A stretch of 64,000 nt of DNA from Parelaphostrongylus tenuis (taxonomy: Eukaryota; Nematoda; Chromadorea; Rhabditida; Metastrongylidae), in NCBI GenBank assembly GCA_019055375.1, contig JAHQIW010000657.1, positions 117,609-181,608 on the forward strand, in the 5' to 3' direction. The notes below the pieces were generated by a model. The model searched no databases, was not told where the DNA came from, and saw nothing but the letters and a program-made list of their open reading frames with translations. This document shows positions 13,101-62,576 of this stretch, piece after piece. The position numbers and the translations under genes were made by a program. Numbering within the stretch: the first letter of the stretch is position 1; every line of letters begins with the position of its first letter.

Positions 13101-16100
13101 ACTGCAGAGAAATCTACCCTAACAAAATGCTCACCTAAAATCAGAAAAATAAACGTTAAAAAATACCTGATTAGCGTGATGTTCCGCCCATTTCCAACGG
13201 CGCCACAGAGCAGTTCGTCTCGACCCGCGCTTCAACATCTCGTAGAGAGCCTCACGAAGCGTAAGTTGCCGGTCATGCAGGCCCCACATACCTGAAAGTC
13301 TCTTGAATATATAAGTTGTTGCGAAAAATGTTTAGCGTATCACCAACCCAAAGACGCGGCATGAAGGAGGCAATTACCATCGCCCGTTGTTGAAAGAGGA
13401 TAGAGCTTCTGTCCATATTGATGCCACCAGTTCAAGTGTTCTGAATATATATGATGCCTCTCTCACTTGACAAGATTAGTTGTAAAAGCAGAAAATTATC
13501 ACAAGGAGGCCGTAATGAAGGACAAAAGGCTGAGATAGACTAAATAACACCAAACACTTGTCTAAAATCATACTCAGAATAAAGGAATGTTAACTACATC
13601 TACTTCGTCCACTCATATCTATTTTTGCATGAATATATAGATAGACGCATACATATACACATACGCATGTACATATGCGTATACATGTATGTATTACATA
13701 AGTATGCATATACAAATATATATAAACATATGTTATATATGTGTATATATACGTAAATGTTTATGTGCATACGTATGCACATATATGTATATATGCGTAT
13801 ACATTCCTATACATATTTATATCTGCAAACATGTACGAATATATCATGCTACGACAAATCGCACAAATACAAGAATTGAAGGATCTTGTGCCAGAAAAAG
13901 TAAGTAAAAATAATATCACCAATAACAATTACTTGAAGCTTCTAATCTCCTTTGCGTCGATGTCTCAATAAGGTCCCTTTCAAGAAAATTTCGGAAATCA
14001 GGTGCCAGTCTTTCCAAGTTCGGCAGACAGAACGCATATCCAGGCGTATGTAGTTTTCGCGAACCACATTCACCAAGTCCTGTGACTTTTTCTAAAAAGA
14101 ACACATGAAGGTTTGAAGGTGGCAATAAAATAAAGCGGAAGGATTAATAAGATCTAACAGTCTTAGAGATGTTTACGTGTATTGAATAATCTTTAGAAAT
14201 CTAAGACTGTATCAAAGCAATAAGTTCCTCACTACAAAACCCGATCAGACTTAACATCCCAGACCGATTTTTTTTTGCGTGACTAAAGCTCATTGATCGT
14301 CAAATGGACACATATCAATGCTCCACGTCCGAGATAGTGAACAAGTAAAAAGCATCAAGTGTTTTTGTTTTAATACACCTGATTTTTGACATTTGAGCTC
14401 ACAATAGGGCTATAGAAATTTTGGGTGAATACGTGCATGCAATAAAATGTTCATTTCCTAACTGATAAAGTCACTATTATTTACGGTAGCAAATAAAGAA
14501 CAATTTACCGTGTGATGTTGAAGGCGTCATGGATTCCACTTCTTCTTGAACACCGTCCAGCTCAAAGTTCTTCAATGCCACCGCTAGATCCCATTCACAT
14601 TCTGAAAACATCTTAAACTCTCCTGTATGTCAGATTCGCTAACATCTGGAAACTTTGAATTGTCTCACCATGATTATTCTTCTCACTTAGATTATAACGT
14701 TTCCTAACAATGATTCATGGACTGCGAGAATTTCTATAGTAACGCTATTGCATCATGGTTATTGTATTTCAATTATACATCACGGATTTTGATTGATATG
14801 CAAGATTTTCGACCTCAATTGGAAGTTGAACCCGGGCCCATACCGGAACGCGTGCTACCACTAAACCATCAAAACCACTGCTCGATTATCTCTTTCTTCG
14901 ATATGAACCGTTGAACCTGTCAACAACCAACCGTTGACTGATTTGACAAGCACATATCGACACTGAACCTAGTTCAGCTGACAGATCAAAGATGTTGGCA
15001 GAGCGATAGTTTCGTGATGTAGTGGTTGTGCTCGCCTCCGGTATGGGCAAAACGTCAGTTCAACTCTCGTCTTAGGCCGGAAATTTTCCTTTATGGGTTC
15101 ATAGACAATCAGGATGATGCGCAAGCAAGGTATACTGAATTGAAGCGCCATTCGCAGATCAAACGAAGCAACAAAAAAACTTTCTTCTACGTCTTCGTTC
15201 AAAATCAGCCAACTCTGTCTTATCAAAATACTCCTAAGAAGCGCAAAACTAATTAGTACGGCACACCACTGAGTCTGTCCTTACTCTAAAAACCTGTTTC
15301 GTGACAAAATTCACACCCCACAACTTCGTCGTTTCAGGTTTTCAGTGAAAAATCCATCACCAGCATTGTGAAATACACAAAATTCAAATACAGAGCACAA
15401 AGACGAACTCATTACAAAATCGAAAAGTCTTATATAAAAGATTATACGATGAGGACATAAGGAAAAAAATTTGTAGTGCTATTTGAAATATGATTAATAA
15501 TGAATGATGTAAATCATTGATACACTAAAAATAATTGGATTCTTTCAACATTTATTCCTCAAAATATTTCGAAGATTGAGTAATACAGCGCTACCCAGAC
15601 GGCGCTCATTACTCATCTACCATACAATTTAACCCTTCCGAGACCACGCACCCACGACCCTGCATCTTTGAACGGCAACTCTGAATGGTCTGCTCCACCT
15701 CCCCTTCATCTCTGACCTCCAGGGCGCTGCGACTTAACAATGGCACGTGGGAGATTAGAGATGCAGACGAGGTGGAGCAGACCGTCCAGAGTTACCAGTT
15801 AGAAATGCAAAGGCCGTGGGTCCACGATCCCAAAGGGGTTAAGACTGGAAGTGTAGATGACTACGAACAATAAGGGAAAATATTTATGTGGTAAATTCCA
15901 AATATACACATTCCGGGTTGCCCTCTCCAGTTATAGAGGTTCCATCAGCATGAGCTTTTCATCAAAAACGTCAAAGGCCTCATGGTGTGACCGCTTTTCC
16001 AATAGTTGTTGTGATAAAAATTGTTCAATGAACTCGGAGACATTACTTGTGCCGTCAACCGGAGCGACACCGAACCTCTTATCAATCCGATGTCATCACT

Positions 16101-17924: not shown

Positions 17925-19400
17925 AAGCACCTGATGAAAAACAAATCACTATACAATGAATGTGTTGCAGCAGCATCATATCAGCTACGGGAAAACAAGA
18001 AATCAGCCAATACTAACGTTAATGAAAAGTCAGTCGCTAAAAGAAAATGTTTACACTCAGAACAAATTCTCATGCCCCACCCAAAGAGTGAGCGACATCA
18101 AAGTTGTAAACGACTTTACAGACTTCAAATTAGAATCTAAAAGTCAGTGCTCTGAGGCAAAGTTTAAGGAAGAGCTGGTTGGGTTAGGGTTTGGTTTGGG
18201 CTTAGAATAAAATAGGAGACAAAGCTTCGAAACTGACACTCATTCTCCAAAGACCACTATAACAAAAACAACCGCTAGATTGAAATCCAGATCTGACAAA
18301 CTTTTTTTTCTGATTAACATTTCTGTTCTATTGGATAGAGATAGCTCTCGAGAATTTTTGCAATTGCGTTTCTTTGACAAATCGCAACAAAGACATAGTA
18401 ATAAATGTGGATTTCTCATGACATATCAAAATATACAGGACGGTTAATACTGTGAATTTGATAAACTTTTGCTGAATTTCAGTGAAAAAGTCAAATAAAT
18501 ATGTGTAGCAAATCAAAAGAAAGTCGGTTATAGGTTTTAAAAACACCTTGATATTCGGTGAATACAATCGTGGCAACATTCAACAAACGATAACGAATGA
18601 ACAACTAAGGTTAGAGACTAGGGTCAAAGCAGACCAAGCGCGTGTCGGCTACGAAGTCGACAAACACTGCTGACGGAAGAAAGAGAAGCTCAAGGTGCTG
18701 CTCAACTCCATGCAGTGGTCCGAGACCACAACTGCGTGCAATGAAGAAGGAAAAAAAGAATCACCGCGTTATTTGAAAGCCCACTTGTCAGATGACACAG
18801 GCAAACAATAATGTTCTTGCTTATCAGAGACGAAGTTTTCCATCAGCAACCGATCCGAATAGGAACAGAAGAGGAAGAAGAAGAATACTGGCCGTTCCGG
18901 AGATGTCATTCTCGTATCTGACGACCGAACGACCGAACACGAGGCGGAGATGATTGCTCACCGCTCTCTCGCGTCTCTTCATACTCCTCCTCCTCCTATT
19001 CCAGTGCGATCCACAACATACGACGCAAATGTTACAACGATGAAAATAAAAAGAACAAACTATCCATCGCATCTCTCGGTTCTCTTAGTCAGTGTGTTCA
19101 TAGTTAGATGATTGGTCGTAAAAAACTGGTAGCACGTAGAAATCATAAAACAACATGACATTCCGTTAGCCCTAATTAGACTTTTACTCTAGCAGCCATA
19201 AGCTGGCTACGATTCGACAGCACCAAATTAAACTCATCAAAGAAATTGGCACCAAAAAGCAGTGAGTAACGACATTGTACTAGTTTGCCGGTAGCGCGGA
19301 ACCGTGTATCCTAACTAGAAGGAATCTTCTAATGACTGCCGCATAAATATTGGCATCTATCCTTCTCCTCCGCACTCACTGATCCTAAGATAAATCCTTG
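17925..19400. other. Spacer without supported features
   Basis: No exon, known repeat or RNA gene could be supported. A short open stretch near 18,949-19,110 (MIAHRSLASLHTPPPPIPV) begins with ATG but has no conserved texture I recognise. Confidence 0.4.
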
Positions 19401-19980
19401 ATTATCCAGGAATACATCCCTTCCCATATAAGCAGATTCTTTTAATCATATAAATTATAATAGCACTGTATTGAAGCTCTTGTTTAGCCGAGGAAAGGTC
19501 GATAATAGCAATAGCAGTAGCAGTTCGATGGCCGACGTTTCGGCGACTTCGTCTACTTCAGAGCTTGACGTACGTTTTATTAGACTATTCGTATCATTAG
19601 CACCACGAATAGCCTAACGCAACCTATGTCCAGGTTCTAAAGCACCGAAACGTCACCCAGCGAACCACTATTATCACTTCATAATGCTTAATTATCCATG
19701 AATACATCTCTTCCCATATAAGCAATTTCTTTCAATCACATAAATTATAAGAGCACTATTAAAGCTCTTGTTTAGCCGAGGAAAGGTCGATAATAGCAGT
19801 AGCAGTAGCAGCTCGATGGCCGACGTTTTCAGTGACTTCGTCTTCTTCAGAGCCTGACGTACGTTTTATTAGACTATTCGTATCATTAGCACCACGAATA
19901 GCCTAACACAACATATGTCCAGGCCCTGAAGAAATCAACATCACCGAAACGTCAGCCAGCGAACCACTATTACTACGACA
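19401..19980. repeat. 290-bp tandem dimer with opposed hammerhead-like cores
   Basis: Unit 1 starts at 'attatccaggaatacat' (19,401) and unit 2 at 'attatccatgaatacat' (19,691). Each contains 'tagccgaggaaaggtcgata', a minus-strand CTGAAG(T/A)A ... GAAA core (19,530-19,566; 19,818-19,855) and, downstream, a plus-strand partner. The plus partner is intact at 19,921-19,957 (CTGAAGA, ATCACC, GAAAC, GTC, AGCC) and truncated near 19,650-19,670. Confidence 0.7.
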
Positions 19981-20469: not shown

Positions 20470-20640
20470 AACGTTTGTGTCAGCCGGGATTTAAACCCAG
20501 ATCTTATTCTTTCCGGTGGTGCAACGGTTTAGCACATGCTCCCGGTAAGAGTAAGATCTGGGTTCAAATCCCGGCTGACGCAAACGTTTTTGCAAACCAC
20601 TCTACATCATTGGGTTTATTCAAACATCATAACACTGAAA
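20470..20640. repeat. Palindromic pair of tRNA-like SINE ends
   Basis: 'gtcagccgggatttaaaccc' at the left is answered by 'gggttcaaatcccggctgac' on the right, around 'tggtgcaacggtttagcac'. The right half plus 'cactctacatcattggg' matches the SINE at 27,160-27,275. Confidence 0.6.
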
Positions 20641-20732
20641 TCGGCGGTCAAATAAGATGATTTCCGATTGATTATCATGCCTTATACCTAAGAAAGACTT
20701 CATGCCTCATAACGCAGAAAGAGTGGTAGCGG

Positions 20733-21526: not shown

Positions 21527-21764
21527 AAAGCAAATGATGTGGTAAATAAAACAAGCGGCAGTAGGTCCCAAAAAAACCTTAATTCAACATCAAAGTCATT
21601 CCAAGAGGACGAAAAACATTAGAAATATTACGAATGAATCGAGATCAGACATCTATAGAAACACACTACACGAATCCAGATGAGATATTTCATAAAACAG
21701 GAGCAAAAACGACTATCATTAAAGTGGAAGAGGATACAGAGGTGTGAAATTGAAAGGAAAGACA

Positions 21765-22005
21765 CAACACTCTGTGTTCGGTGATAATTTCACTGGAAAT
21801 AGAGTGTAAAACGTTCGCCGTCGCTAACTCTTAGTGTGAGGACTGGAGCACCCACACAGGATTGGCAAAAGACAAGAAAGGGTAACTGCTCGACTGACGA
21901 GATCGCAAGATCGAAACACCTGTATCGGGCTCTATAAGTCAGCGCTCTTTGACAGACCACTGACATGCGTGGCTCAAAAAAGATTACCAGGCATATTGAA
22001 AGGAA
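21765..22005 (+). mobile_element. Family A ribozyme-bearing repeat, partial copy
   Basis: Contains the shared blocks 'caacactctgtgttcggtga', 'gtcgctaactcttagtgtg', the hammerhead core, 'cagaccactgacatgcgtgg' and 'attaccaggcatattgaaa'. Compared with 25.75-26.13 kb it lacks the left terminal block. Confidence 0.7.
21888..21930 (+). ncRNA. Hammerhead ribozyme motif (family A)
   Basis: Stem I 5' strand GCTCGA (21,888-21,893) pairs with TCGGGC (21,925-21,930) including one G-U pair. Core CTGACGA 21,894-21,900. Stem II GATC/GATC with GCAA loop (21,901-21,912). GAAAC 21,913-21,917. Two-pair stem III AC/GT with loop ACCT. Cleavage would follow A21,924. Confidence 0.75.
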
Positions 22006-24056: not shown

Positions 24057-24139
24057 TCCAAAAGGCCAAAAAATTTCCTATCAGATTATGCTGAATTCTA
24101 AGCGAGGTCTCAACAGTCGATTAGAAGGGTGCTGATCAT

Positions 24140-24245
24140 ACATACATATATATATATATATGTACATATACATACATATATACATGTATACACATGTATA
24201 TACACGTGAATTTGCACATGCTGCATATACATAGATATACACAAA
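24140..24245. repeat. (TACATA)n/(TA)n microsatellite
   Basis: Imperfect ACATAT/ATGTAT repeat, like those at 13.6 and 33.7 kb. Confidence 0.9.
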
Positions 24246-24941: not shown

Positions 24942-27900
24942 GACGCGGACAGAACGAAGAAGAAGAAGAAGAACAGCGGACGGGCCGACGACGACGGCGA
25001 GCTGGGCGGCGACCAAGAGCGTCTCCTGGGAGGCGGCGAGGGTCTCCTGGGAGGCGGCGGAGGCGACCAGGAGAGCCTGCTGCTCGCCTCCAGCGACGAC
25101 ATCGTCAAGGATCTGCTCAATGATGTGAGACAATCAGAGAAGGTCATTATTACCTTGGCTCTCCGAGAGCACCTTTCATTCGTGAATTCTCTCTATTTTC
25201 GAAAGTCAAAACTGGCGTCTAGGTCATGCCAAAATCGCTCTATTGTTGTCTTTTTTCATTATCATTATTTGAGCCAACTTGTCATGTGGTCTGGTAAGGG
25301 CTCCTTTTCAGCCTGAATAATTTCCGTTAGCTACACCCTGATTCGACCCTTCGAAAAAAAAAGCATTCATTTGGTCGTTCTTAACGTTCAGATAGCTATC
25401 CGATAGCTGAAATCAAAAGAATTTGAACGGTACCTATTTTATTTTTGAGTTGGTTCTACTATCGCCGAAACAGCAATAAAATAAAACTTCGTTATGCCTG
25501 GTAATCATTATTTGAGCCACGCATGTCAGTGGTCTGTCCATGAGGGCTGACTTATAGAGCCCGATACACGTGTTTCGATCTTGCGATCTCGTCAGTCGGG
25601 CAGTTGCCCTTTCTCGTCTTTTGCTAATCTCTGTGGGTGCTCCAGTCCCCACAATAAGAGTTAGCGACGACGTACGATTTACACTCCATGTCCAGTAAAA
25701 AACTCACCAAACACAGAGTGTTGTACACTCGAATGCTCGTGGCTCAAATAATGATTACCAGGCATATTGAAATTTGAGCTGTGGTCTTAAGAAAACACTC
25801 GAAACAAAAGATATGATATATTGAATATACTAGCCACGAGCATTCGAGTGTACAACACTCTGTGTTTGGTGAGTTCTTTACTGGACATAGAGTATAAATC
25901 GTACGTCGTCGCTAACTCTTATTGTAGGGACTGGAGCACCCACAGAGATTAGCAAAAGACGAGAGAGGGCAACTGCCCGACTGACGAGATCGCAAGATCG
26001 AAACACGTGTATCGGGCTCTATAAGTCAGCCCTCATTGACAGACCACTGACATGCGTGGCTCAAATAATGATTACCAGGCATATTGAAATTTGAGCTGTG
26101 GTCTTAAGAAAACACTCGAAACAAAAGATAAAACTTCGTTACTCATTCCAATATTTACTGCTGAACAGAGTGGTTTTTTTTTGAATTTCTAGAATCTAAT
26201 CAATAGATCAAATCTCAGGGATTCCAGCTTTGTCTTTGATTTCTAAAACGAAGTTCTTAGTGCTTTGTAACAGCCAAAAGAAGTTTCGCTTTCGCACTGG
26301 GCACGCAGGGCGTGCATTGACCGGTGAGGCTTTTCCAAACCATGCTTGTAATCATCAACAAAAACTCTGTAGACCGAACGCAAGCTTCATTCGATGACCT
26401 CTCTTACACAGACATTCGGTTTGCAGTACGCAATGTTTTTGTAGGTACATACTGCGTTTTCTTCAGTACTTGGTAAAACGTAAAGGCTCATAGTTGAGAG
26501 AACTCGATGAAAACCAGTAGAAATTTGAGCTTGGTCTTAATAAAGCACTCGAAAGTAAAGGTATAATATGATAAAAATACCAGCCAACGAGCAATCGAGT
26601 GCGCAACACTCTGTGTTAGGTGAAAATTTCACTTGACATGGAGTGTAAAACGTTCGTCTTTGGTACCTCCATGTAAGACGAGCAGGCTCTCGAGAGAACT
26701 GGTTAATAAAAAGGTCGAAGGACGACGGGTTCTGCCCGACTAACGAGTCTGTAAGGACGAAACATGTGTATCGGGCTGTACAAGAGCTCCTTACCAGACC
26801 ACATGACAAGTGGCTCAAATAATAATTAAAGGATCTATTGAAATTTGAGCTTGGTCTTAATAAAGCACTCGAAATAAAGGTATAATTATGTTGTCTTTTC
26901 ATTAGGAGATCTTTTAAAGACTATTTTGAGCTTTAATGAACTCTACCATGTTCTCCTGTCGTCCCCCTTTTTCCTAGAATTCTGGTACATCCGCCTAGCA
27001 AAATCGTAGAAAGAGCCAGACCGTAGAAACGTCCGCGGTTTGAAAAGATAGCCTTCTGAGAACTACCCGTTTGATAATCAGTCAGAATTCTTTTTATTGA
27101 CTGCGACTTGCAGTGGTATGATGTTATGGTATGCCCAATAATGTGGAGTACTGTGCAAAAACATTTGCGTCAGCCGGGATTCGAACCCATATCTCACTCT
27201 TTCCGGGAGCGTGCGCTAACCGTTGCACCACGGACGCTCGTTTGTGCACAGCAGCCTCTGCATTATTGGGTATACTACGTGTTTGACTCAGTAAGAAAAA
27301 ACGAACTATTTATGTCTTCGCCAGGAAAATCATTTACGAAGCGACACAGGCTAGATGTGGTGCAATCGATAAGCGTTTTGGCTTCTCTGTGGTTTTGAGG
27401 GGGCAATGAAAAACCGATTTTATTCCGCTGGAGAGTAACTTTTCATAGGAGCATTGGTAGCCATTAGAAAGCTGAGACTTTGGGCTATAGGCATGCATCA
27501 TCGGTTTTCGAAAAAAAGGTTTCATGACATTGTTACAGGAGGAGATTTCTTGCGTTGCAGACCCGCATATTTCTCGCCGGACAGAGCGTTTTTTTTGAAC
27601 CATGAGTAATCATTCGATAGCGTAGTCGTTTTTGATTCCAACGCTGTGCTCATATCCTGAAAAGGCCGTTTCCCTGTAAAGGCGGCAGGTAAAATAAGTT
27701 GGAGAAATATGCGCGACTGAGGCTATTTTTATTCTGGATTTTATAGCGTTATAAATGAATGTTCTGAAAAGCCAGCGACATGGGGCTGTAGCCTGAGATG
27801 TCAGCTTTCGAATAGTCACTAACATTCCCATGAAAAGTTCCTCTCCAGTGAATGAGGTCGGTTTTTCATTTGTCCCTTATAACCACAAAGTATTCAAAAC

Positions 27901-30900: not shown

Positions 30901-33900
30901 GTAGCTTAAATTTCCAGAAAAAAAAAGCCATCGCTAACCATTTCTATGTTCTTTATAAGTTTGGAATTTTCACTTAGGTGGCTACTCTAATGAGTAGTCT
31001 TTACATGTCATTCTGGTCTCAGTAATTTCTCCATTTGTTTTCTACTTACAACCGCACCTTGGAAATTGTCGGGTTCGTATACAGTTTGGCTGCTACACAG
31101 ATGTGCCATCCCTTGATTTAAATCATTTATGCTGCTAAATTGATCCTATATTTCGAATTCTCAGAAATCTTTGCTAGTCCTCATAGGTCTAGTCACCCCT
31201 GAACACAGACCTATGGGGCTCGAAGGACGGTTAGCTACCTTCCAGCTTGAATTTCTCCGTGATCATAGCAGTTTCGGTTGTAGCGGCGAAATTGGAAGTA
31301 ATATATCTCTCAAGGTTAGAGCCAAATTTGTCTTGATTTCACGTGCTGTGAAAAGCAGAAGTTCTAGGTAGTAGAAAGGGTGTAAACTGGTTCTCGTCAT
31401 AAGAGCTCGCGATTTTCTAATCATTTTGTTTACATGGAAGCTGCGAGCTTGTAGCACTTATCTCATGAACCATTTCGTATATGAAAAGTGCTGCGTCAAT
31501 TCTTGCTTATTTATTCCTATGTGCTTGGACATTTATTGAGATTTTGAGCCAATTTTTCTGTTCTTATGTTCAGCATTATCGGCACAATTAGGAATGATGA
31601 CGTGTCATTAGACATTAGATTAGATTGTTTTAGACACTGTTGTGAGCTAACCACTCCTTTCCTCCGCTGTCGACAAATTTTCTAATAGGCTTGTCGGAGG
31701 TGAACTCCTCTTGATCCGAGAAAGCAAGCTTTTGCCTGTGATTACAACCAGGATATGCGTAACTGAGCTATCCTGGCATTCCACGTTGAGTGTACTCGAC
31801 AAGTTGTCAACGATCTTTTCTTCTGTAATGTGAAACCTCAAGTAGCATCCGAACCTACAGGGAAAAAATTGAGCATTACTATTTGCGCAGTTTGCTTAGC
31901 GATACGGCTTATTTCGAGAAAAAAAATGTGAATTTTCACTCTGGTAAGGAGCTCTCATAACGTGATCAACTCGTTTTAGTATGAAAAATGGAGAAAGAGG
32001 ATTGTAAAAAGACTTATTCCTTGGGTTTATCTTTTGTCGTCTTCTAAATTGTGTGTATGTAAGATTATATTCCATTGTATTTCAGCAGCTCTACCTGTTG
32101 TACCGCCACTTGGAAAACCACCATCAATCAATGCTTTTCCTTTGTCTAAACCAGTCAAAAAGGATGAAGATGAAGTGATGCAACCATCTTCCATCAAGCG
32201 AGAATCCGACATTCTCAACAAGGTTAGATCATTAGAGCTTTTTTTTTCGTGCTCCGTATACGGGATGTTAATTCCGAGTCAAAGCCCAACTGCACTCGAA
32301 TGGGGAAGCAAATGGATTCGCAGCATCATTTACGTCGGTTATCTTGACATTTATGTCAACTTTGTAAATCTACACGTGCTACCATTGTGAACCCTATTCA
32401 CGCACTCTTGCCCATGCTTGAATGCACGAAGATTATAATGCGTTCGTCCATTCAGGCATAGTGATGCAAATGTCTAGTGATTACTGGCAGAGCTTAGGTC
32501 CGAGAAGGTAAGTACCTCGGGAAGTCAATATTATGAAGCCATGGGAGAGATGATCCACTTAGGGTGTTGAAACTACACATCACGCCATAAACTTACAGCA
32601 TCAGTCAGTGTCCTCTCACGGTGGGCGTATTGTATCATTCAACTGAGAGAGGAACCTCATGTTCCAGTTTAAATAAACGACCAGATATTGAAGGAGAGCT
32701 TACTATTCACGGGAGAATGTCGAAAATCAGGCCTACACGTGGAAACGTTTAAAAATGAGTCTTTAATCCAGCCATTAAAAAAAGGTGCTTCCAGCCAACT
32801 CTAGTAAACACCTGTATTTATAGCAGAATAAGGCTTATCGATGGATATTGCTTTAACAATCCATTTTTCTCTGCTGTTTCTGCGAAAATATGGCCGGAGC
32901 ATTTACGCGGGTTCTGCTAGGGAGGGTGTCGGTTTGGTGTTAGCTAAACTTCCGGATGGATTTTTCCAACTCTTTCTCCACCGTGGTTTGACACCCGTCA
33001 ACAATCGACTATAATGAGGCGATAAACTTTTGACACATTACATATTTTCATACACATGCATATGTATGTACATATATATGCATGTGATGCGTTTATACAT
33101 GCGTTGGTATGTTTGAGGTATCCATTTTTACCTCCTGTCTCAATTTTAGGTTATCGCTGAAAAAGGACGAGGCGATTTCATTCCTAGAAATTTGAAGGTG
33201 AAGCATGCCAACAGTGAGAACCCTGTGAGCCAAAATCAAGTGCGATGTGACAATTCGAAGAAACCCGAATCCAAGTTACCTGATAAGGCCAAGGATGAAA
33301 GGTTTTGATTGTGTGTTGTTTTTCCAAAATTCTCTGCCATAAGGAGTAGTATTTTACAATCCATTCTTTCAAGCTTTGTCGAAATTTCGGCTGATGAAGA
33401 CGAGAAGAATGCTGAATTTGCACCTTCTGTTCCGCCCCAACGTACTCTGTCTCCGATCGCTTCGGCTACAGTTGCTCCTCCAGCTCCTGAACCAGTAAGT
33501 GATGGAGAACTAGAGAAAGAGATAGCAGAAGAGTTGGCTGCGGCTGCACAGCCGAAGGTCCGTTTTTTTTTTACAGTCCACTCAACATTAACTTTTTGAC
33601 TCATAAATTCAATGGTGTATGTTTGTAGAGCAGCGCCAAGTTCTCCAGAGTGTCGAAGGTCGTTGAGTCTTCTTCGGCTGTCATATCGAAGAGTGGTATG
33701 GCATTTTTTTTGCATTACTACATGTAAATAAATATGCCTGTAAATACACTTATTTACACGATTGTATACATATTAATAAGTGTATACGTACATGCATTCA
33801 CATGCACATACATATATGTGAAAGTACATGTATGTGTACTTATATACACACATATGTATGATGTATACACGTGCATGCATCTGTATATATGATCCATTTT

Positions 33901-36900
33901 TCCTGCGTATTGCGTGAGCTCCAGAAAATCCATGATTCCCTTCATTGGTGGGTTTTCGTAATTGAGCATGGATTCAGCTGCTACTCATGAACTTCATCTT
34001 CTTTGTGGATGTCGTTAGGAGCTGGTGCAGTTGATCTCCCTCGAGTTCTGGAGGAGTTTTGTCGCACTGTTTCTAGCTGTGCTTCTTCGTCTTGTTGATC
34101 TTAGAAAGCTTTTCCGATAATACTCTGTATTAGTGGCGTGTTTCCACGAGTTGTGCGATCTACATCATAATCTTCATTCGTTCCTTTCATTGTCGATTTT
34201 TTTTTTGATGGTGGGGTTTTTCGAGCATGCCTTCGGAACAGCACCTGTGGAGTTCAATAGTAGTTCTTTCTTAACAACAACGATGTATCGATGTTCAGAA
34301 AATTACGTATCAGTGTTGTTGTATATGATTATCAAAATTTTGCTTTAGTGACTAAGGAAAAAAACTCGAAAAAAACGACATGAATCGTCGAGACGTCAAA
34401 GTTCGAGTCCCAATACAGATGACGAGATAAGGATGAAGGCACGAACGTCGGCGTGAGTTCTTCGTTTAAATCTGAATTTCTCGCCCTTCTACATTATACG
34501 TTTAGTCAAATTGTTACTTGCATTGAAATTTCTGCATACGGATTCTATTTTTCTATTGTGAAAAAGACAGTTTGTGAAACGCAACAATCTTCATTTTTTT
34601 AAGTCGCCAACCAAGAGGACCAAGAAGACGATATCGTTCTCGAGGTCGACGGCGAGAGGATCGGTAAGTTTCATGGGCATATCAAATGTATCCTAAATAT
34701 TTGCAAGAAAGAGTGCGCGTATATCTTGCCAGTTTAACAACAATTCCATACTGTGTCGGTAATTCATCCCATACCAATGTGATTTCTTAAAGTCGAATTT
34801 ATTTAATTTATGATGCCTGTTCACTGCGAATTATGCTGGTTCATAGTGCTGAAGCGGTCAAGTGAGGTTTCTGGAGAAGTATTGTTTGGCTATCAGTAAG
34901 CCATCCTTTTTGTGCTGAGTGGTATTGAGATATCAAATGAAGTCGCTTTTCGGATTGCACAACTTATCAAGCATCTAGGCAAAACAAAAATTCGAAATCG
35001 TATACCGAAACCAATCTGCGTAATTCTGTGTGTAACGTGAGCGGACCGTAACATCCTATGAAGCATAGATTTAGAAATAAATGCGCTGATTGAAGAAGCA
35101 TAAGATTCGGCTTAACGAAGACACGATGTGTCATCGTCGTCGTTAACTAGAACGATTCATTTTACAAGATCTATTTATTCTGGCTTTTCACAGTATATCT
35201 TGATTTCTTGAAGATTTTGTTTATATACTACGCATTATTTCTGGGAAATTTCATAATACCAGCAATTATACGTCAGCATTTTTATTGCATCATTAAATTT
35301 GTTCAAATATTCTAAAATTGGGCAGTATTCGTACAGAAATTATTCCGACAAATTCATTAACGTGACAGATTCCATATTGAAATTCAGCGAAGCGGCAGGA
35401 TACCAGTAACTTTGAATTGGGCGGTGAAGCAAATAGATCTCCTTTCCTATCCATAATTTTTGTTCTAACCCATTGGGCTATTGAACTCAGTCTTGATGTC
35501 GACTACGACTCCGAGAGAAATGTGATTCTAGGATCTTAAAAAGTGGCCACAGTCAAGGCATAATATAAAGTAATAATGAAAGGATCTATTGAGATTTGAG
35601 CGTGGTCTTAATAAAACACTCGAAATAAAGGTATAATATGATAAAAATACCAGCCAAAGAGCAATCGAGTGTACAAGACTCTGTGTTAGGTCAAAATTTC
35701 ACTTGACATAGAGTGTAAAACGTTCGTCTTCGATTCCAATCTGTAGGGAGAATAGGGCTCCGGAGAGAACTGACTAATAAAAAGGTCGAAAGACGACGAG
35801 TTCTGCCCCACTAAGGAGTCTGTAAGGACGAAATACGTGTATCGCGCTGTACAAGAGCTCTTACCAGACCACATGACATGTTGGCCCAAACAATAATGAA
35901 AGGGTCAAGTCATGAAGTTCGTGTTTTATTTTATGTCTTGCGCAATAGATGTTTTTGCTCCTGATTCCTCCCTCCTCCCTATCTGATCCAGTTCATTGGT
36001 AGTTGCTTTCGAGGGTCATTGTTGGTGCATAGAGAGTTCTTATTTTTTGCTCTGTCTTGTTTTAGTCATTCTCCCTCGATATGCTGACCGCCTTCGAATT
36101 AGAAATCGTTTTCTCCTTCTAATAATTTCGCATAGTTATTGCATAAGTGTTCCAGATCGCGATCACGTCGTCGGTATTCAAGATCGAGAAGCCAAAGTCG
36201 GTCTCGTGATAGGTGCAGACGCCGGTCGAAGTCAAGAAGTAGAACACGGAGCAGAAGTCGAAGTCGTAGCGATGTTCACCTCAGATTGAAGTAAGTGGAC
36301 CATCAAACATTGTATCTGAGGTTTCAATGCATCGAATTTTGTTAGCACATACCAACTTTACAATCTTAGAAAGTGGTGAGCTTAGAGTATACTCTATGCT
36401 ACTTTTCAATCTAAGTAGAATCTACCGATGTGTGTTTTGAAGATTCGAGTTTCGACATTTCAAAGCGAAGAAATTTTGGTCCCTCTAATCCAAAAACTCG
36501 GGTTTTGGCTTATCTTCATCGGAAAACTTTCAACAGCTATTTGAAGACCATTTTCATTTCAGTTTCGGTGAGGAAATCAGCGAAAAAAAATGTTTCAACT
36601 AAATGGCATTGATCTACACAATCATAGTAGTCAGACTCAGTCCTTCCTCTTAGTAAAGAGTTCCTTTCCAGGTCACGCCGATCGCGTTCGAGATCTTCTT
36701 CACGGAGTAGAAGTCGTAGTAGAACTCGTAGTTACAGCCATAGTTCAAGAAGTAGGAGTCGAAGCAGATCACCAAAAAGGCGACTTGGTGCGGATCAACG
36801 AGGTCGACCAGGAGTTGGTGCTGCTGGTAGATACCGGAGAGGACGCATAGATAAGGCGAAACTTCTTGCCATAGCGAGGAAAAAAGCGCAAAAAATGCAA

Positions 36901-48879: not shown

Positions 48880-49990
48880 TAAAAAACGTATTTCTCGGTC
48901 TTTTTCAATGTTCAAATAGTTGTTGGATAGCACAAATCAAAACAATTCGAACAGTGTAATACACCTTGAAAAAGGCCTTGTTATTGCGCTGAAAGAGCAA
49001 TTTTAACATCTTGTTTCTCATTGGAAGATTTCTCGTTGACCAAAGCCTTTCCTTCGGAGTTTCATTCACCAGTCGACAGATCAAATCTTAAAGATTCCAA
49101 CGATCTATTTGGTTTTCATGACGGATCTGGTATAACGCTGTAACAGCCAAAAGAAGGTTGGAGTTTCGCAAAAAGTGGGTCACTTGAACTATCTTCTCTT
49201 CACTTTGATCGATTGGAAAAAAGTTCAAATAATCAATCGATAGCTTGAATCAAAAGAATTTGAATGATGTAATTCACTTTCAAAAAGTCCTTGTCATTGC
49301 GCTGAAAGAGCAGAAATGATATTTTGTTTCTCACTGAAAGATTTCTCGCTCGACCAAGGCCTCTCTTTTATAGTTTCAGAACAAAACGATAAACCAGTTC
49401 TCAGGGACTCCAAAAATACTTTCGATGTTTTTGATGGACTTCCTTATGCTTCATAAGAACTAAAAAAATGTTGAGTTTCGCATTTGGGCGCACAGGGCGT
49501 CTCAATCAAGAAGATTTTTCCAGAACACATGCTTAACATGAATTACTACTTTTAGCGCAACAACAAGGTTTTTTTGAAAGTGAAGTACATTTCTCAAATT
49601 CTTTTGTAGAAGCAATTAAAAAAACAAACAAAAAAAAACAAATTAAACACGTTTTTTCCAATAGATTAATGTAAAGAGAAGACAATTTTAGTGACCCAGT
49701 TTTTGCGAAGCCCAATCTTCTTTTGACTGTTACAGCGTTATACGAGGTCCATCATAAAAACCAAATAGATCAATGGAATTCTCAAGATTTGGTCTATCGA
49801 TTGATTAGTAGAACTCCGAAAGAAAATCTTTGGTCAGCGAGAAATCTTTCAATGAGAAACAAAGTATTTTTTGCTTTTTAACCGCATCAACGAGGCCTTT
49901 TTCAAGATGGAATACAGCGTTCAAATTCTTTACTATCGAATGGTAGTTTAATTGTTTAGAACAAGCGCAAAATAATCTCTTTGTAAAGGG
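48880..49990. repeat. Cluster of ~300-bp repeats, direct and inverted
   Basis: Two direct units (from about 48,890 and 49,215) share 'ttgcgctgaaagagca', 'ttgtttctca', 'gatttctcg' and 'gttgagtttcgca'-type segments. A third unit runs inverted at about 49,550-49,980. A single relative is at 26,140-26,330 ('taacagccaaaagaagttt'). Confidence 0.55.
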
Positions 49991-53123: not shown

Positions 53124-53575
53124 CGTTTCGACAAGTTGACTAACATCTTCAAATGAAAATTCTATGGAATAAGGCGATCACACAGAGACATAAGAAATTT
53201 CCATAAGTCATTCTTCCATCAGATAACAGCGGAAGGCATAGAAACCTAAACAAAAAGCGCTTCGAAAACCTTCTTGATCAATAAAGTTTCTAGCCTTATT
53301 CCGTATATAAAGAAGTCGTTAATACCGCGGAAGCCAGTCACATCGTCTCAACGTTCCCGTGCTGCTGCTCGTCAGCCATATCTTTCACGTGGTTTCTCAA
53401 ATAACTCATTGTGCTTCATAGTTATTCCTCAGTGCTTGTGGTTTACTCTTGTACTCAGGTCATTCATTGCGTATTATCTGTCTAGTATTTGCTGTTGTTG
53501 ATTGATGCAGTAGTGTTGTTTTGTATAAGTTTGAAGCAAACCCACGGAACCTGAGGGCAACACATTCTCTACGAC
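53124..53575 (+). repeat. BEL/Pao left LTR
   Basis: Aligns by eye with 58,022-58,492 through 'tatataaagaa', 'ccagtcacatcgtctcaacg', 'catagttattcctcagtgct' and 'gagggcaacacattctc'. Similarity continues a little past the listed end, so the true LTR edge may lie 50-80 bp further on. Confidence 0.75.
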
Positions 53576-53790: not shown

Positions 53791-54750
53791 TTGACCAAGC
53801 TCAAAGAAAATGAACTTGCTGGAGTAGACATATCTCCCACGGAAGGACAAATCAACCCTCATCTTCTGGAGAGAAGGGTACAAAGCCTCGTAGAAGGACT
53901 GAGTGTCCTTAACAATACTAAAATTAAAGTAGAAGAAGAATCTCGCGACTACACAAACAAACTTGAAGATCTGGATTCGGACGATATTCTGAATGAGTCT
54001 GAAGAAAATGTTAGAATATCCGCAACAAAAAATAGGTGAAGCGTCTGAGAGTTCCTCCGCTCTGCAGGCGCGACTAGACGGCCTCAACACTCTATATTGG
54101 CACATCAACCACTGCCGACATACGTAATGACGAGGACGACTACATCTGTTGTTAGAGATGTGGAGCTATCCACGATACCCATTCCAAGCTTCAAGGGAAT
54201 ATTTGGGATTGAGATAGATTTTGGAAGCTATTCAATAATCAGTGTAATTTCAAAAGGATCTCTGACTACAAAGTTCAATTATCTCGTCAACTCTTCAGAA
54301 GGAGAACCCTCCAAGCGATCGGGAAGTTTCAAATCAACAGCGAATACTATCAAAGAGCGATAGATATCCTCCTATCAAGATATGGAAACCCCGAAGAGCT
54401 CATCTTCAGCTAATGAAAAATCAGACATGACTTCTCCTCGCTCAGCGACACTACAAGAACAAAGGACAACACTGAATCACGTACAAGCCATTATGTACCA
54501 ATTAATCGACAAAGGAGAAGAAGTGAATAATCACTGCATGTACAGCAAAGTTCGCTCGAAATTTCCCAGCAAAACTCAGCGAAAAGTGCTAGCCAAGAAG
54601 GCGACAACAGCATCCTTTGAGATGCAAGAACTGTCGAAGATTTTACATGAAACAATATCTGGTGAAAAGTGGATTTCACGCTACATGACAAAGTCGACAA
54701 CTGCTCCGATCCATAGGGCTAGGAGAGAAGGAACTACGCCCCAATTACTG
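53791..54750 (+). pseudogene. BEL/Pao gag, frameshifted
   Basis: Successive frames give NPHLLERRVQSLVEGLSVLN, then IPIPSFKG, KFNYLVNSSEGE, then TTLNHVQAIMYQLIDKGEEV and MYSKVRSKFPSKTQRKVLAK. The SFKG and KFNYL.(6).GE spacing is typical of the gag domain (DUF1759-like) of Pao elements. At least two frameshifts or stops (54,037; 54,361) break it. Confidence 0.75.
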
Positions 54751-54791
54751 TAATCAATGCTGAAACTAAGGCAAACCTATCACCTTCGTGT

Positions 54792-55374
54792 ATGTATTGC
54801 AAAGGAAATCACAAATCTTTCTATTGCGACCAGTACAAGACGCCGCAAGAGAGACACCAATATCTGAAAAACAACAATTTATGCCATATATGTGCATCCT
54901 CGTCCCATGTCGCCTTTCAGTGTAAACGACAATCGTGCTACAAATGTCAAGGAAGACATCATACATCATGTTGCTTATATTACACCAAAAGATAAATCAT
55001 ACGCGACTTTCAACGAAAAGACAGTCAATGGACAACAAAACCAAAGAGTCATGAAGCCATCTATATTCCCTTTGAAAATATATTCAGTCGCTCAATACAA
55101 TCCACATAACGCCGACGTATTAGCAACCAAAAACGCAGGCAACCATGTTGCCCACTGGACTCTTGACTGTCTTGAACCCAACAACAAACGTCTGGGGAAA
55201 ATTCACGTCTTACTGGACACAGGAGCCGAATTGTCATTTATTGAGAAAAAGTTGGCAGGAAAACTCCATCCACCAATTTTCGATGAGATTAAGCTACATT
55301 TAAATACATTAAGCTCGGATGATGTCCAGAAACATTTGGCAAGAAAAGTGTCCTCGGATGTATGGGATGAGTAA
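54792..55374 (+). pseudogene. BEL/Pao zinc knuckles and aspartic protease
   Basis: CKGNHKSFYC, CHICASSSHVAFQC and CYKCQGRHHTSCC are Cys/His knuckles. After a change of frame, GKIHVLLDTGAELSFIEKKL carries the DTG catalytic triad of the DUF1758-type protease. The frame ends at a stop at 55,372-55,374. Confidence 0.8.
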
Positions 55375-55849
55375 GGTAGTCAGCTCTCATTATCTCCTTA
55401 CACATAAGGCCATTACGAAGCCACTACAAGCGCCATAAATACGTCCAAAGGACATCGAATTCATCCGGAAAACAATTTCAAGATCGAATTAGCAAATACG
55501 CCGTCCATAAAACCGTCTATCCTACTGGGATGTGATCAATTATGGGCTTTAATGAAAAAGGATGAATATCCCATTCAACTTCCATCCGGTTTATACCTTA
55601 TTCCAACAACAATAGGATATTTATGCACAGGGAGGACGCAAGAATCAAATCATGTACAACAACAAGAGAAAAATGTGCTATTGCAGCAGGAAGGAGAAGA
55701 AGAAAATGCAGAGAAAATCCAGGAGGATGAACAGACCAGTGGGAGAAACATTGCACATTACAAGCTCGCTTCAACACTACCATCGTTCATAAACCTGAAT
55801 TACAAGATGAACATGAGATTGATTGAGCAAAATTTTGGACTTTAGAATC

Positions 55850-57450
55850 AGCCGGAACTAACGAATTTGCAATCTCTGAAAAGGAAGAAGAAATATTAAT
55901 GAATCAAAAAGTATGGAGAACTTCACTGAGACTAGACTGGCGAAAAACGAAAAGACCGTTACTATGTCCGTCTCCCTTGAACAAGTTCTAAAGTATGGGA
56001 GAAGAAGTTCTGGAAGTAGCTCCATTGCCGGTAATAAGGCAATCGCTTTCAATAACTAGTAAGCGTCTGGAAATCTTTACAAAACGATGAAAATTTGTTG
56101 GACATGTACAATGAAATATTCGAAGAACAACTTCGCGCGGATATTCTTGAGAGAAATTAGCGAACGAAATCAACCTCTGCTGTCCCAGGAAAAAAGTGGC
56201 CAAAGCCCACGAATTCATTATATTCCCATTAAGCCGTTTCAACACCAAAGAAGAACGGCGAATTGAGGATAGTGTATGACGCATCAGCCCATCACAAATG
56301 ATGTCCATCATTGAACGACCTCCTACATCGAGGACCAGTAATTCTTCCAGAACTTTTTGGACTGCTACTTCATTTCAGATTCGGAAAAATAGCGATCATT
56401 TCCGATGTCGAAAAGTACTTTTGCAACTTCTCCTTCATGAAGAGGATCGTGACGTGACACGCTGCTTGTGGTCACACAACCATAATTACCACCTTCACCA
56501 AGCAACATCAAAGTTCTTCGATTTACCAGAATCACCTTTGGATTCATTACATCACCGTTTTTGCTCGCGATAAAGATTCATTACCACCTTGACCACTACA
56601 ACCAAGACACTGCTTTGATCAATGAGATAGAGAACAACTTATATGCGGACAACCTGATTCTGACCACCGACGAGTTCGAAAAGCCAGTAGGAACAGTAGA
56701 AATCTATTCACGTGTGAAGCAAATGTTCAGTGACCTCAACATGAACCTTAGCGAATTTGTATCAAACGAAGCCGATCTGGTGAAGAGAATGACAGTTTCG
56801 GACATAGCACACGACCAAATATCAAAGGTATTTGGAATCCCATGGAACGCTCACTCGGATTGTACACAAATATCATGCGCCATGAAATCATGCGTCACCA
56901 AAAGAACAGTCGCCAGTACACTAACTTCTGTACTACTATGGGTTTCCTCTCTTACCATTAGTTCATCAGGCGAAAGTATTTCTACTCGTTATGGAAAAAG
57001 CACTACGACTGGGACACTAATATAATAGAATCCTACAAAGAACACTGGATACCTATATGCACAAAAATAAACGGATTCACGAAAGTACTACTGCGTTACC
57101 TAGGAACGAAGGATAGCGAAAAGGGACTCTCGTAACTTTTGCCGGCGCCAGTAGGGAAGCTATTGCAACATGTATTTATATGCGCTTGAGAGACTCAACT
57201 AATCTTCTAATGGCAAAAGGAAAACTGCCTCCTTGAAGCTAGTGTCAACCATACCAAAATGTAAGTGGATGCTGTAACGTTAGCATCCGACTGACGAATG
57301 CCACACTAACACAACTCCAAAAATCGCACAATATCCAGGACATTTATATTTCACAGGCTCGGAAACCGTACTCACCTGGATCAAACGAGAACCACTTAAT
57401 AACGTCGAAGCCAGGAAGTTCATCCGGCTCAAAAAAGATCGATGATAACG
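55850..57450 (+). pseudogene. BEL/Pao reverse transcriptase and RNase H remnants
   Basis: KKNGELRIVYDASAH, then a stop, PSLNDLLHRGPVILPELFGL, FGKIAIISDVEK, and later ENNLYADNLILTTDEFEKPV (the YxDN catalytic block of Pao reverse transcriptases) with FSDLNMNLSEFVSNEADL. Near 57,340-57,440, YFTGSETVLTWIKREPLNN matches the segment following RNase H. Several stops and frameshifts intervene. Confidence 0.75.
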
Positions 57451-57499
57451 CCAAACATTATCAAACACTTTTCTTCACAGATTTTCAGCATCGCTAATC

Positions 57500-58020
57500 T
57501 ATTCTTCCACTATTCACTCCAGGTTTACTCACTGTGCATCAACTACCATTTCTTGCAGACCATTCAACTATTCATCTGCTCACGTCAGGTTTATTCACTC
57601 TGCAACAACAACTAATCGTTCTATTCTTCACAGTATTAACGTCAGGCTTTCCAATTCTGCGTCAGCAACTGACCCCCCTCCCTTTCACTATTGTGATCGT
57701 CTTGTTAATCAACTGTTTTCGTCACGTCTACCCATCCGCAGCACTAAGCATTCCCTCCCGAGCCATTCAACTGTTCTCGTCAGTAACTGCTATTAATCTT
57801 ATCTCATCAAAACCTGGGGTAGTGTCGACACGGTCGACCATCTTTCACAAAATTTGTCTGCGAATTCGTCACTTATCAGGTCCGCCATAGTCGACAGCTG
57901 TACCGCAAATCTGGTAAGATCCGAGCTAGTCATATACGTACTCATCCACTGAATAGTACTGTAATGCGTCTTTGACGCTCGCCACTTCAAATCCATACCC
58001 AAACAAACTTCCAGGGTGGG
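57500..58020. other. Non-pol insert before the right LTR
   Basis: Pyrimidine-rich plus strand with loose repeats of 'cattcaactattc' and 'gtcagg(c/t)tt'. On the minus strand 58,002-57,799 is open (WRASKTHYSTIQWMSTYMTS and onward), with no family recognised. It occupies the place where integrase is expected. Confidence 0.4.
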
Positions 58021-60543: not shown

Positions 60544-62576
60544 CTACGACGACATTTTCCGTTCTTCTCGCAGAATTTTCATCTCTTTCTGTTGAAGTTG
60601 TGCAATTCGCAGATATAAATTGTCATACGCCTGAACGAAAAAACTACTATACTTCGAGGCCAGTAAATGTAGAAAAATTCATACATAGTTTTTGGCATAC
60701 AAATTTAATAGCATAGCCACAAAATCTTATTAGACGCTGTATCAGCAATGTTCGAAAGACTGAATTCATGGGAAAGCTCGACGTAGGTTATAAAATATGA
60801 TCGTAACGTATCGCATTGATTCCCATCACCCTAGTTCATTGGACAATATATCATACCTTTCGTTTCGACTGTTTTCTTGAGAGCACGCTTGATTTAACAT
60901 ATCTCATGATTATTTTTTGAGCCAACAAATCATGTGATCACAGAGCTGACTTACAGAGCCCGTGTTTCGATCATGACAATCTCACAGTCGGGCGGTACAC
61001 TTCGTCTTTTGCCAATCCTCCGCGGCGCTTAGTCCCTAAACTAAGAGTAGGCGATAGCGAACATTTTACACCGTCCATCAAGTGAAATTATCACCGAGTG
61101 GACATTGTTGTACACTCGACTGCTCTTGACTGGTATCGTCAATGTGTCTATACCTTTCGTCGATACCAGCCAAGAGCAATCGATTCTACCGCACTGTCTC
61201 TTCGGTGATAAATTCACCTGACATACAGTTTAAATGTTCGTCGTCGCCTACTTTTAGTATAAGGAACTGAACGCCCGAGAGGATTAGGAAAAGACGAAGG
61301 GTATCGCCCCACTGATGAGAATGTCAAGGTCGAAACACGTGTACTGGGCTCTACAAATCAGCCCTATAACAGACCACATGACATGTTAGTTCAAATAATA
61401 ATCATGAGATACACTGAGCAATACTAAAATCGTAGATTCTAAAAAACCTAGGTTGACAACAAAACATTACTGGTTATTACATGAGTCAAGTAAAAGATCC
61501 GTATGTTTGACTGTATCCCCCTCCAAAACAGAAGAACTGAATCACACTCGAGAACGCTTAGTGGCATGCAAAACGGTTGGCTCCTAACAGCTTCGATGCA
61601 CTATATCGAAGAGAGGAGTAGCACACTTGCCAACCCGCTGGTGTAATGGTAGCGCGCGTCCCTGGTTTAGGTGAAACGCGGGTCCAACTCCCGCATGGTT
61701 TCAATGGCTTTGCATATCGCTCAACATCCTCGGTTGCGTAGTTACAACATCATGACACTGCTAAAATAGCCGGAGTTAAGGCGCTTGGTAACTGATTGCA
61801 AGAAAAAGCTGGAGCCACAGATCGTACTGATGCATCGCTTGTCAGCTCCTTCGTGATATACTGCACCACTAACCACTGCCTTAACCGCACTTCTGAGCGG
61901 AGGGTAGAGTTCTAAGTAGACATCAAATACATAAACAACATTTGCATTAACACACCTGTCCTTGACCTTCAGACTCGTTGCCGCCGCTGCCACCACCCGC
62001 AATACTGCTTCCCGTTCTAGCCAAAGTTATCGGATCATCGTCTTCTTTCTTGTCATTCTCCTGAATGTTCCATCGATCTTAATTATGAAGCCTGATGAGA
62101 AGTTATCAACGAAACTGCTCGAAAGAGTAGCAAGTTGAGACTAGATTTAAACGTTTCCAAGAAAAACGATAACTCTATTGTCACCGGCGCTAGAGGAGAA
62201 AAATCGTATTACAATATCGTAGAAAGATTGCAACAGGTGGGAATCCTAATCACAGCATCGTTTACTTCAAGGAATGTTCTGTCAACGAGGTTCCGCTGAT
62301 AAAAATTTGAAAAAAAAGAGCTAGGGGATTTGGGCTGCGTTCGAGTCACTCACATGGTTCTTCGACGTGAGTAAGATATAGAGCGATGTTTTAAACTGTT
62401 ACCGGTATACTGCGACCATCACAAATAGGAACAAAAATGAAAAGAAAATGTCGATAGCCAAACAAGGTTGAAACGCACTACCTCTTCGTCGTCATCATCG
62501 TGGAAACTCTTTTCCTTCATATCATCTGGTCTCAGACAAGACATATACGGCCTTGATTCTGGCATGGGAAGGACCA
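60544..62576 (-). CDS. 3' end of an unidentified minus-strand gene
   Basis: Three exons join in phase: 62576-62482 (VLPMPESRPYMSCLRPDDMK, then KEKSFHDDDDEE), 62060-61956 (ENDKKEDDDPITLARTGSS, then a Gly/Ser linker ending GNESEGQGQ) and 60630-60544 (AYDNLYLRIAQLQQKEMKIL, then REERKMSS and TAG at 60,544-60,546). Acceptors TTTTTCAG, ACATTCAG and GTTCAG precede them; donors are GTAGTG and GTGTGT. The tail is an acidic patch, a flexible linker and a short Leu/Glu-rich amphipathic helix that could be a coiled coil. The exon at 62,576 begins in mid-codon, so more exons lie upstream, probably beyond 64,000. Function unknown. Confidence 0.7.
60950..61000 (-). ncRNA. Hammerhead relic (family A)
   Basis: Minus strand GCCCGA, CTGTGAGA, a widened stem II ending GATC, GAAAC, AC, then CGGGC directly. 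The GTGTAT segment containing the cleavage triplet is deleted, so this copy cannot cleave. Confidence 0.55.
61296..61375 (+). ncRNA. Hammerhead ribozyme motif with canonical CTGATGA (family A)
   Basis: GCCCCA (61,306-61,311), CTGATGA (61,312-61,318), a weak stem II around GTCAA, GAAAC (61,332-61,336), AC-ACGT-GT stem III, A61,343, then CTGGGC. Inner stem I keeps four pairs (GCCC/GGGC) with two mismatches next to the core; outer AGGG/CCCT remains. Confidence 0.6.
61630..61745 (+). repeat. tRNA-headed SINE, family I
   Basis: 'gctggtgtaatggtagcgcg' and 'gcgggtccaactcccgc', followed by 'gcatatcgctcaacatcctc'. No anticodon stem forms, so not a tRNA gene. Confidence 0.55.

Follow-up and report, generated by a model that had tools for sequence, protein, structure and literature searches.

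In the current study, we have analysed a stretch of 64,000 nucleotides (hereafter the window) of the nematode Parelaphostrongylus tenuis, taken from contig JAHQIW010000657.1 (positions 117,609 to 181,608, forward strand) of a 481.5-Mb assembly (GCA_019055375.1). At 25965..26034 on the plus strand the window carries a type I hammerhead ribozyme motif, which was recognised by direct reading, by the Rfam model RF00163 (Hammerhead_1), by a descriptor scan and by compensatory changes. The motif lies within a 317-bp non-coding tandem unit (25814..26130, plus strand) which, on sequence grounds, is a metazoan retrozyme of the type without long terminal repeats (non-LTR). The way in which copies of this retrozyme are inserted has its counterpart in the Penelope-like elements (PLEs) of the same genome, and suggests that the retrozyme is mobilised by PLE machinery.

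All motif elements named in the initial annotation were found by direct reading at the positions given there. The outer strands of stem I (GAGGGC, 25965-25970, and GCCCTC, 26029-26034) and its inner strands (GCCCGA, 25975-25980, and TCGGGC, 26012-26017) form the proposed two-part stem around an asymmetric 4/11-nt internal loop, with AACT on the 5' side and an 11-nt strand on the 3' side. The core consists of CTGACGA (25981-25987) and GAA (26000-26002), which enclose stem II, GATC/GCAA/GATC (25988-25999), with GCAA as its loop. Stem III is formed by ACACGTGT at 26003-26010, and because this sequence is palindromic and forms only 2 bp, a dimeric hammerhead is possible. The H17 residue is A26011, and cleavage is predicted between A26011 and T26012, after position u198 of the unit (numbered u1-u317); the 5'-OH end expected at 26,012 is the right one for a hammerhead. 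Both the reading and the RF00163 match, the latter below its cut-off, show three stems around CUGANGA, GAAA and UH, open at stem I.

A covariance search had been proposed as a check of the annotation. In a search of 271 bases, RF00163 matched 25975-26017 over the full model (1-45) with 27.7 bits and an E-value of 5.6e-05, but this score is lower than the Rfam gathering cut-off of 34, and the hammerhead was absent from the whole-window Rfam scan at E<=1. Across the genome, 20 of the 74 candidates scored (119,811 first-look candidates) passed the cut-off, although none of these lies in this contig. In 14 control genomes no match exceeded the cut-off, and one of them, Lactococcus lactis, gave a weaker match. 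The exact 24-base core CTGACGAGATCGCAAGATCGAAAC of the window copy (family A) occurs 2,304 times in the genome (1184+1120), and the reversed pattern does not occur. The core pattern of a second family (B) gave 3,581 genome matches and none in its control; CTGANGA was intact in 99 of the 100 family B matches listed, unlike in the two family B copies of the window, which are both mutated at G5. A descriptor scan for the full hammerhead, made over 324,169 bases that are mostly loci chosen for carrying the repeat, returned 75 matches against none for the reversed control, and revealed three hammerhead families besides A. These families differ in stem II and are found near family A insertions (L065:2666-2712, plus strand; L022:58-102, minus strand; L031:4223-4264, plus strand).

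Stems I and II are kept across the families in the eight rows compared, for which the stem pairs were read per sequence by script; alignments misplaced the loop gaps. The first pair of stem II was G-C in all eight rows, and pairs 2-4 were AT/TA/CG in family A, GC/CG/TA in D, TA/CG/TG in B, GC/AT/GC in E and TA/TG/CG in F. Pair 2 of stem I varied between GC, AT, CG and TA with pairing maintained, and pairing was mostly kept in stem I as a whole, with two unpaired positions in a mutated family B copy (35805-35847). The outer stem I of L052 was ATGGGT/GCCCAT instead of the GAGGGC/GCCCTC of the window copy, and reading of the same rows gave no clear outer stem I for family D or for L031. Overall, sequence and comparative evidence (the covariance match, the compensatory changes and thousands of intact cores) support the assignment of the window motif as a type I hammerhead with a looped stem I, for which catalysis is predicted.

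The full retrozyme unit has a GC content of 43.5% and lacks a long reading frame, the longest stop-to-stop frame in a tandem trimer of the unit being 67 codons. It is preceded by a partial tandem unit with the same period of 317 (u242-u317; 25738..25813, plus strand) and by an inverted arm of the same insertion (25495..25744, minus strand), the 3' end of which points outward and falls at a position (u about 268) within an end region here called P2. This end was placed by eye; BLAST extends the arm to 25484 through the flanking duplication, and the two arms overlap by 7 nt. The inverted arm carries a second hammerhead copy (25542..25611, minus strand, whole-motif coordinates mirrored from the inverted repeat) with intact core and inner stems (25560-25600). 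The insertion is flanked by the target-site duplication ATAAAACTTCGTTA, located at 25481..25494 on the left (11-14 bp, with ambiguous ends) and at 26128..26141 on the right, where its first 3 bases overlap the element end.

The annotation of the motif as part of a dispersed repeat was also correct, with further copies in the window comprising the inverted arm (25495-25744), an older family A copy and diverged families. The older copy (21764..22001, plus strand; 89%) has a single arm that ends near P2, and its hammerhead (21889-21929) has a decayed outer stem I. Of the two family B copies, one is a partial tandem with the core CTAACGA (26520..26886, plus strand; G5 to A) and the other has the core CTAAGGA (35568..35906, plus strand); judging from these cores, both are probably inactive. 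A diverged two-armed copy at 60844..61402, with about 70-75% identity to family A, shows the same inverted order (minus arm at about 60844-61160, plus arm at 61163-61402). Copies occur as partial tandems with a period of about 317, and the best of them are 97-99% identical. The unit RNA was predicted to be more stable than shuffled sequences with a z of -3.9 for both strands, and folding cannot tell the retrozyme strand because both fold equally well.

To describe how the copies insert, we read 58 loci out of thousands, of which 37 were the best matches to the window copy and 20 followed contig order in the list of core matches, the window being the remaining one. Arms with less than 80% identity or shorter than 30 nt were ignored in the cluster count, and L048 was omitted because, judged on its arms, it probably duplicates L011. 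The 58 loci contained 68 copy clusters, 45 of them two-armed and 23 one-armed. The two-armed clusters were without exception oriented minus-then-plus, with their 3' ends outward (45:0 versus plus-then-minus), and the same order was found for opposite-strand neighbours within 700 bp among the first 100 core matches listed per family (11:0 for A, 18:0 for B). The outer ends, one-armed clusters included, fell into two regions: P2 at u255-u285 (52 ends; median 74 nt past the cleavage point) and P1 at u300-u20 (57 ends; median 120 nt). One P1 end was combined with one P2 end in 40 of the 45 two-armed clusters, with a single P2/P2 pair, no P1/P1 pair and four clusters with one end elsewhere; in the contig-order sample alone, this combination was found in 11 of 13. 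If ends were drawn independently and equally, the chance of obtaining one of each in 40 of 41 pairs would be about 2e-11. Duplications with a score of at least 8, mostly of 10-13 bp, flanked 38 of the 45 two-armed clusters, compared to 42 of 1978 (2.1%) in a swapped-flank control. Considering the end pairing and the flanking duplications, most two-armed clusters derive from a single integration event that began on both sides. The retrozyme thus shows an arrangement of PLE type, with inverted arms, outward 3' ends and a tail on one of the two ends.

PLEs are abundant in the genome, where a GIY-YIG profile scored 150 domains of 1,723 candidates, with open frames of up to 902 codons. Among the first 120 of 189 matches, the nearest relatives of a 420-amino-acid PLE frame are strongylid nematode proteins with reverse transcriptase (RT) and GIY-YIG domains. 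Among these matches, identity reached 78% over half the query for Angiostrongylus costaricensis and 71% over 84% for another, and was mostly 50-60% for Ancylostoma and Haemonchus. On their own, these matches would put the host probably with the strongylid nematodes, close to lungworms, an assignment that draws on a mobile element and that transfer could distort. The best 40 of 3,189 candidate PLE 3' ends match that of L071 at 99-100%, which indicates that some PLE copies are very young. Opposite-strand GIY-YIG neighbours within 6 kb were arranged minus-then-plus in all cases (20:0). Seven PLE insertions, chosen because both arms were listed, were read at both outer ends, and their end pairs, with distances counted from GUC in a hammerhead-like motif that lies close to the 3' end of the PLE, were +60/+107, +104/+61, +104/+62, +127/+66, +60/+103, +32/+106 and +63/+113. 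All seven carried a tail on one end only, with the tail-less end at +60 to +66 (one at +32) and the tailed end at +103 to +107 in five and at +113 and +127 in two. Their flanks shared words of 12-14 bases in every case, whereas none of 42 swapped controls did so at 9 bases or more. According to these end pairs, the PLE in most cases uses one start at about +60 on one side and another, about 44 nt beyond it, on the other side, compared to medians of +74 and +120 in the retrozyme. The PLE motif, CUGAAGA..GAAACGUC with a possible extra A before stem II, is our own reading, since the Rfam scan of the PLE 3' loci and the junction recognised no hammerhead there.

Three PLE regions showed further particularities. 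One (G000:C1932:269578-279167) contains one inverted 3' end followed by three tandem 3' ends about 2,985 bp apart, the plan of the retrozyme at ten times its scale. Another 3' region (G000:C1126:914706-915384) contains short tandem repeats of about 129 bp. At L088 (G000:C411:53560-53900), a family B retrozyme directly adjoins a PLE insertion at its left end, which suggests nesting; this PLE end is 28 nt shorter than the usual +60.

The retrozyme resembles the metazoan non-LTR retrozymes presented in the passages of PMC7229834 considered here, which have a type I hammerhead in a non-coding tandem unit of 170-400 bp, a GC content below 50%, copy numbers in the thousands, target-site duplications of more than 4 bp, a stable self-paired RNA and coexisting PLEs. 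The invertebrate motifs shown there likewise have a 2-bp stem III capped by a tetraloop. On the other hand, those retrozymes come from cnidarians, molluscs, rotifers, platyhelminths, annelids, crustaceans, insects and amphibians and not from a nematode, and the same passages describe no head-to-head insertion structure with two starts. That paper reports circular RNAs of metazoan retrozymes in coral, mussel and axolotl, and regards PLEs as likely helpers because the two share hammerheads and tandem copies and occur together. With the Penelope/Poseidon-type PLEs, as described in portions of PMC3846280 and PMC11167929, the retrozyme shares inverted head-to-head arms with the 3' ends out, partial tandems, a tail at one end, short duplications and two internal starts. 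It differs from them in its length of 317 bp and in lacking a frame with RT and GIY-YIG domains, as an autonomous PLE would have, and the hammerhead-like motif of the PLE is minimal here. The W-elements of Schistosoma are similar in being satellite-like repeats that carry functional hammerheads and show some signs of mobility, but the excerpts of PMC8490949 at hand describe neither a two-start inverted signature nor a PLE helper. Plant LTR retrozymes are likewise non-autonomous and form circular RNA by their ribozymes (PMC4918200, in part), as proposed for the retrozyme here, but have a type III hammerhead within their LTRs, 4-bp duplications and circles of 600-800 nt according to sections of PMC7229834.

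The structure of the arms provides clues about their template. The cleavage junction is crossed by 97 of 113 arms, and 38 of the 90 arms of two-armed clusters are longer than one unit. With linear cleaved templates, inner 5' ends should accumulate where the hammerhead cuts; such an accumulation was considered and found not convincing, since 6 of 90 ends lie within 5 nt of the site versus 3.1 expected, an excess that is weak at best. In 23 of 45 clusters the inner junctions overlap by 1-8 bases, as expected of microhomology joining. Because arms cross the cleavage junction and exceed the unit length and inner ends are spread, cut linear monomers are disfavoured as the usual template, unless the enzyme jumps from end to end, and the arm structure fits circles or uncut multimers.

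Based on these observations, we propose, with a probability of about 0.78, that the retrozyme is mobilised by PLE machinery, probably as an RNA circle, with reverse transcription starting on both target strands at two sites. In this scheme, the retrozyme RNA would be cut into 317-nt monomers by its hammerhead, and the monomers would be closed into a circle by a host ligase, by analogy with other animals. A PLE protein of the same genome, acting in trans, would make staggered cuts roughly 12 bp apart in the target, after which both freed target strands would prime, one at P2 (about 74 nt after the cleavage point) and one at P1 (about 120 nt). Each cDNA would then go round the circle until it stops, leading to partial tandems, and the two cDNAs would be fused in head-to-head orientation, in many cases through a few bases of microhomology. 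The expected product is an inverted pair with 3' ends outward, an extra tail of ~45 nt on one end and a flanking target-site duplication, which would be explained most simply by bidirectional target-primed reverse transcription, in which the PLE protein brings one strand of the target to each site. In the lizard PLE PAc, according to parts of PMC11167929, both strands are cut and extended by the protein of the element, and synthesis begins internally at two sites that delimit the known tail. For bdelloid Penelope, the relevant section of PMC3846280 describes an inverted pLTR, a duplication of 9 bp and a tail of 31 bp on one of the ends, and explains the inverted structures by self-priming on antisense RNA.

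Several observations weigh against mobilisation of a circular retrozyme RNA by PLE machinery. A third of the clusters (23/68) are one-armed, and of the 17 of these retained for the duplication test (clusters of about 150 bases or less were left out), only seven had a duplication score of at least 8, compared to 8 of 270 with swapped flanks. Among the two-armed clusters, 5 of 45 break the one-of-each rule or have an end elsewhere. The outer ends are those of BLAST alignments, which may extend several bases too far (by about 11 at the window's P2 end), and the two-end reading of the PLEs covers seven insertions. The retrozyme unit shared no sequence by BLAST with eight PLE loci, and the link between the two therefore rests on architecture, spacing and duplications. 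Besides, the comparison of insertion signatures covered the PLEs among the retroelements of this genome. The minimum-energy fold of a 79-nt hammerhead piece, although more stable than shuffles (z -2.47), was not the catalytic fold, and the same holds for the other minimum-energy folds made; such folding leaves tertiary contacts unmodelled. Arms that cross the cleavage site suit uncleaved multimers or end-to-end template jumps equally as circles. In the experiments on PAc described in PMC11167929 (in the parts considered), hammerhead cleavage was unnecessary for insertion in vitro and the start site was alike on both strands, so that neither the one-of-each rule nor the circle is derived from that study.

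Among the other explanations, a chance resemblance to a hammerhead is hardly credible, since the score of the window copy under the gathering threshold, which would agree with it, is contradicted by the empty reversed controls, by compensatory changes in several families and by other genome loci over the threshold, and this explanation was rejected. Foldback elements form inverted pairs flanked by short duplications. A DNA-level repeat of this kind, or a satellite, bearing its hammerhead by descent only, would resemble the clusters in these two respects. We nevertheless consider it very improbable, because asymmetric ends (one P1, one P2), arms ranging from tens to over 700 nt and partial tandems with a period of about 317 suit copying from RNA. 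Mobilisation by a non-LTR retrotransposon of the LINE type (long interspersed nuclear element), with the inverted pairs arising by ordinary L1-like twin priming, would also yield inverted insertions with duplicated flanks according to the literature consulted in part, and LINEs are left open as helpers in passages of PMC7229834. Twin priming does not readily account, however, for inversion in 45 of 68 clusters with two distinct start regions, one of each in 40 of 45, nor for the same signature in the resident PLE at nearly equal distances from its hammerhead-like motif. Nor do the copies end consistently in poly(A), as a clear A/T run at one end was seen in only two (L018 and L028) of the 45 clusters whose ends were inspected for it. 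From this comparison, which covered the PLEs of the genome, we regard a LINE as an improbable helper.

A closer competitor concerns the role of the ribozyme. Uncleaved multimeric transcripts might serve as templates, with the hammerhead fold mainly a landing structure that positions the reverse transcriptase and not a means of forming circles. The main substrate of PAc is unprocessed RNA, and its hammerhead mutants insert normally, as stated in portions of PMC11167929. The fixed distances from hammerhead to start sites in both element types and the lack of strong clustering of inner 5' ends around the cleavage site point in the same direction. On the other hand, the stems are kept by compensatory changes, the catalytic core and the cleavable H17 are kept in most families seen, and circles do form in other animal retrozymes (PMC7229834, in part). 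Considering both sides, templates of this kind seem unlikely, with a chance that is nonetheless appreciable, and we retain the PLE-driven insertion of a probably circular RNA as the preferred interpretation.

The window also contains repeats of other types. A 4.9-kb element is bounded by direct repeats of 81-85% identity (53125-53352 and 58022-58249) and has several separate frames at 54364-57890 (plus strand), one of which gave a weak reverse transcriptase match (RVT_1, E 0.00018); both an LTR-type and a PLE-type element were considered. A tRNA-Ser(GGA)-like sequence at 27166-27237 (minus strand; ARAGORN, and 42 bits in Rfam) looks like the head of a tRNA-derived short interspersed nuclear element, and a second tRNA-scoring copy lies at 20514-20662 (plus strand; 35 bits), the pair being part of a 134-nt inverted repeat. 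Alternating AT-rich repeats (13622-13820, 24127-24238 and 33719-33890) triggered microRNA models, but all microRNA matches of the whole-window Rfam scan were below their own cut-offs and were discarded. Other tandem or inverted repeats at 48907-49931 (spacing about 313) and 19393-19931 (about 289) were not matched by the family A or B units.

The element itself belongs to the family of metazoan retrozymes, and the novelty lies in the manner in which its copies are inserted and in a signature that it has in common with the resident PLE. In the literature matches listed, as far as their contents were available, we recognised no description of nematode retrozymes or of a PLE signature in retrozymes. 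A review from 2020 states, in the passages concerned, that the repeats show no motif revealing their helper and that PLEs are likely candidates from co-occurrence (PMC7761336). The insertion signature reported here provides direct genomic evidence for PLEs as the movers of animal retrozymes, a question stated there as open, and is of a kind absent from the passages of PMC7229834 and PMC7761336 considered. We hypothesize, and hold it to be somewhat likely, that metazoan retrozymes are non-autonomous partners of PLEs. Both would carry a hammerhead, a first start at about +60 to +74 and a second about 45 nt further, and one ribonucleoprotein would load one target strand per site, so that each full insertion would be a head-to-head pair from a single bidirectional target-primed event on a (probably) circular RNA. 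Since the best PLE copies (3' ends 99-100% identical) and the best retrozyme copies are both young, the genome of P. tenuis is a good test bed for this scheme. The rule of one start site per strand also bears on the insertion of PLEs themselves, for which the parts considered here of PMC3846280 propose self-priming on antisense RNA and those of PMC11167929 internal initiation on both strands.
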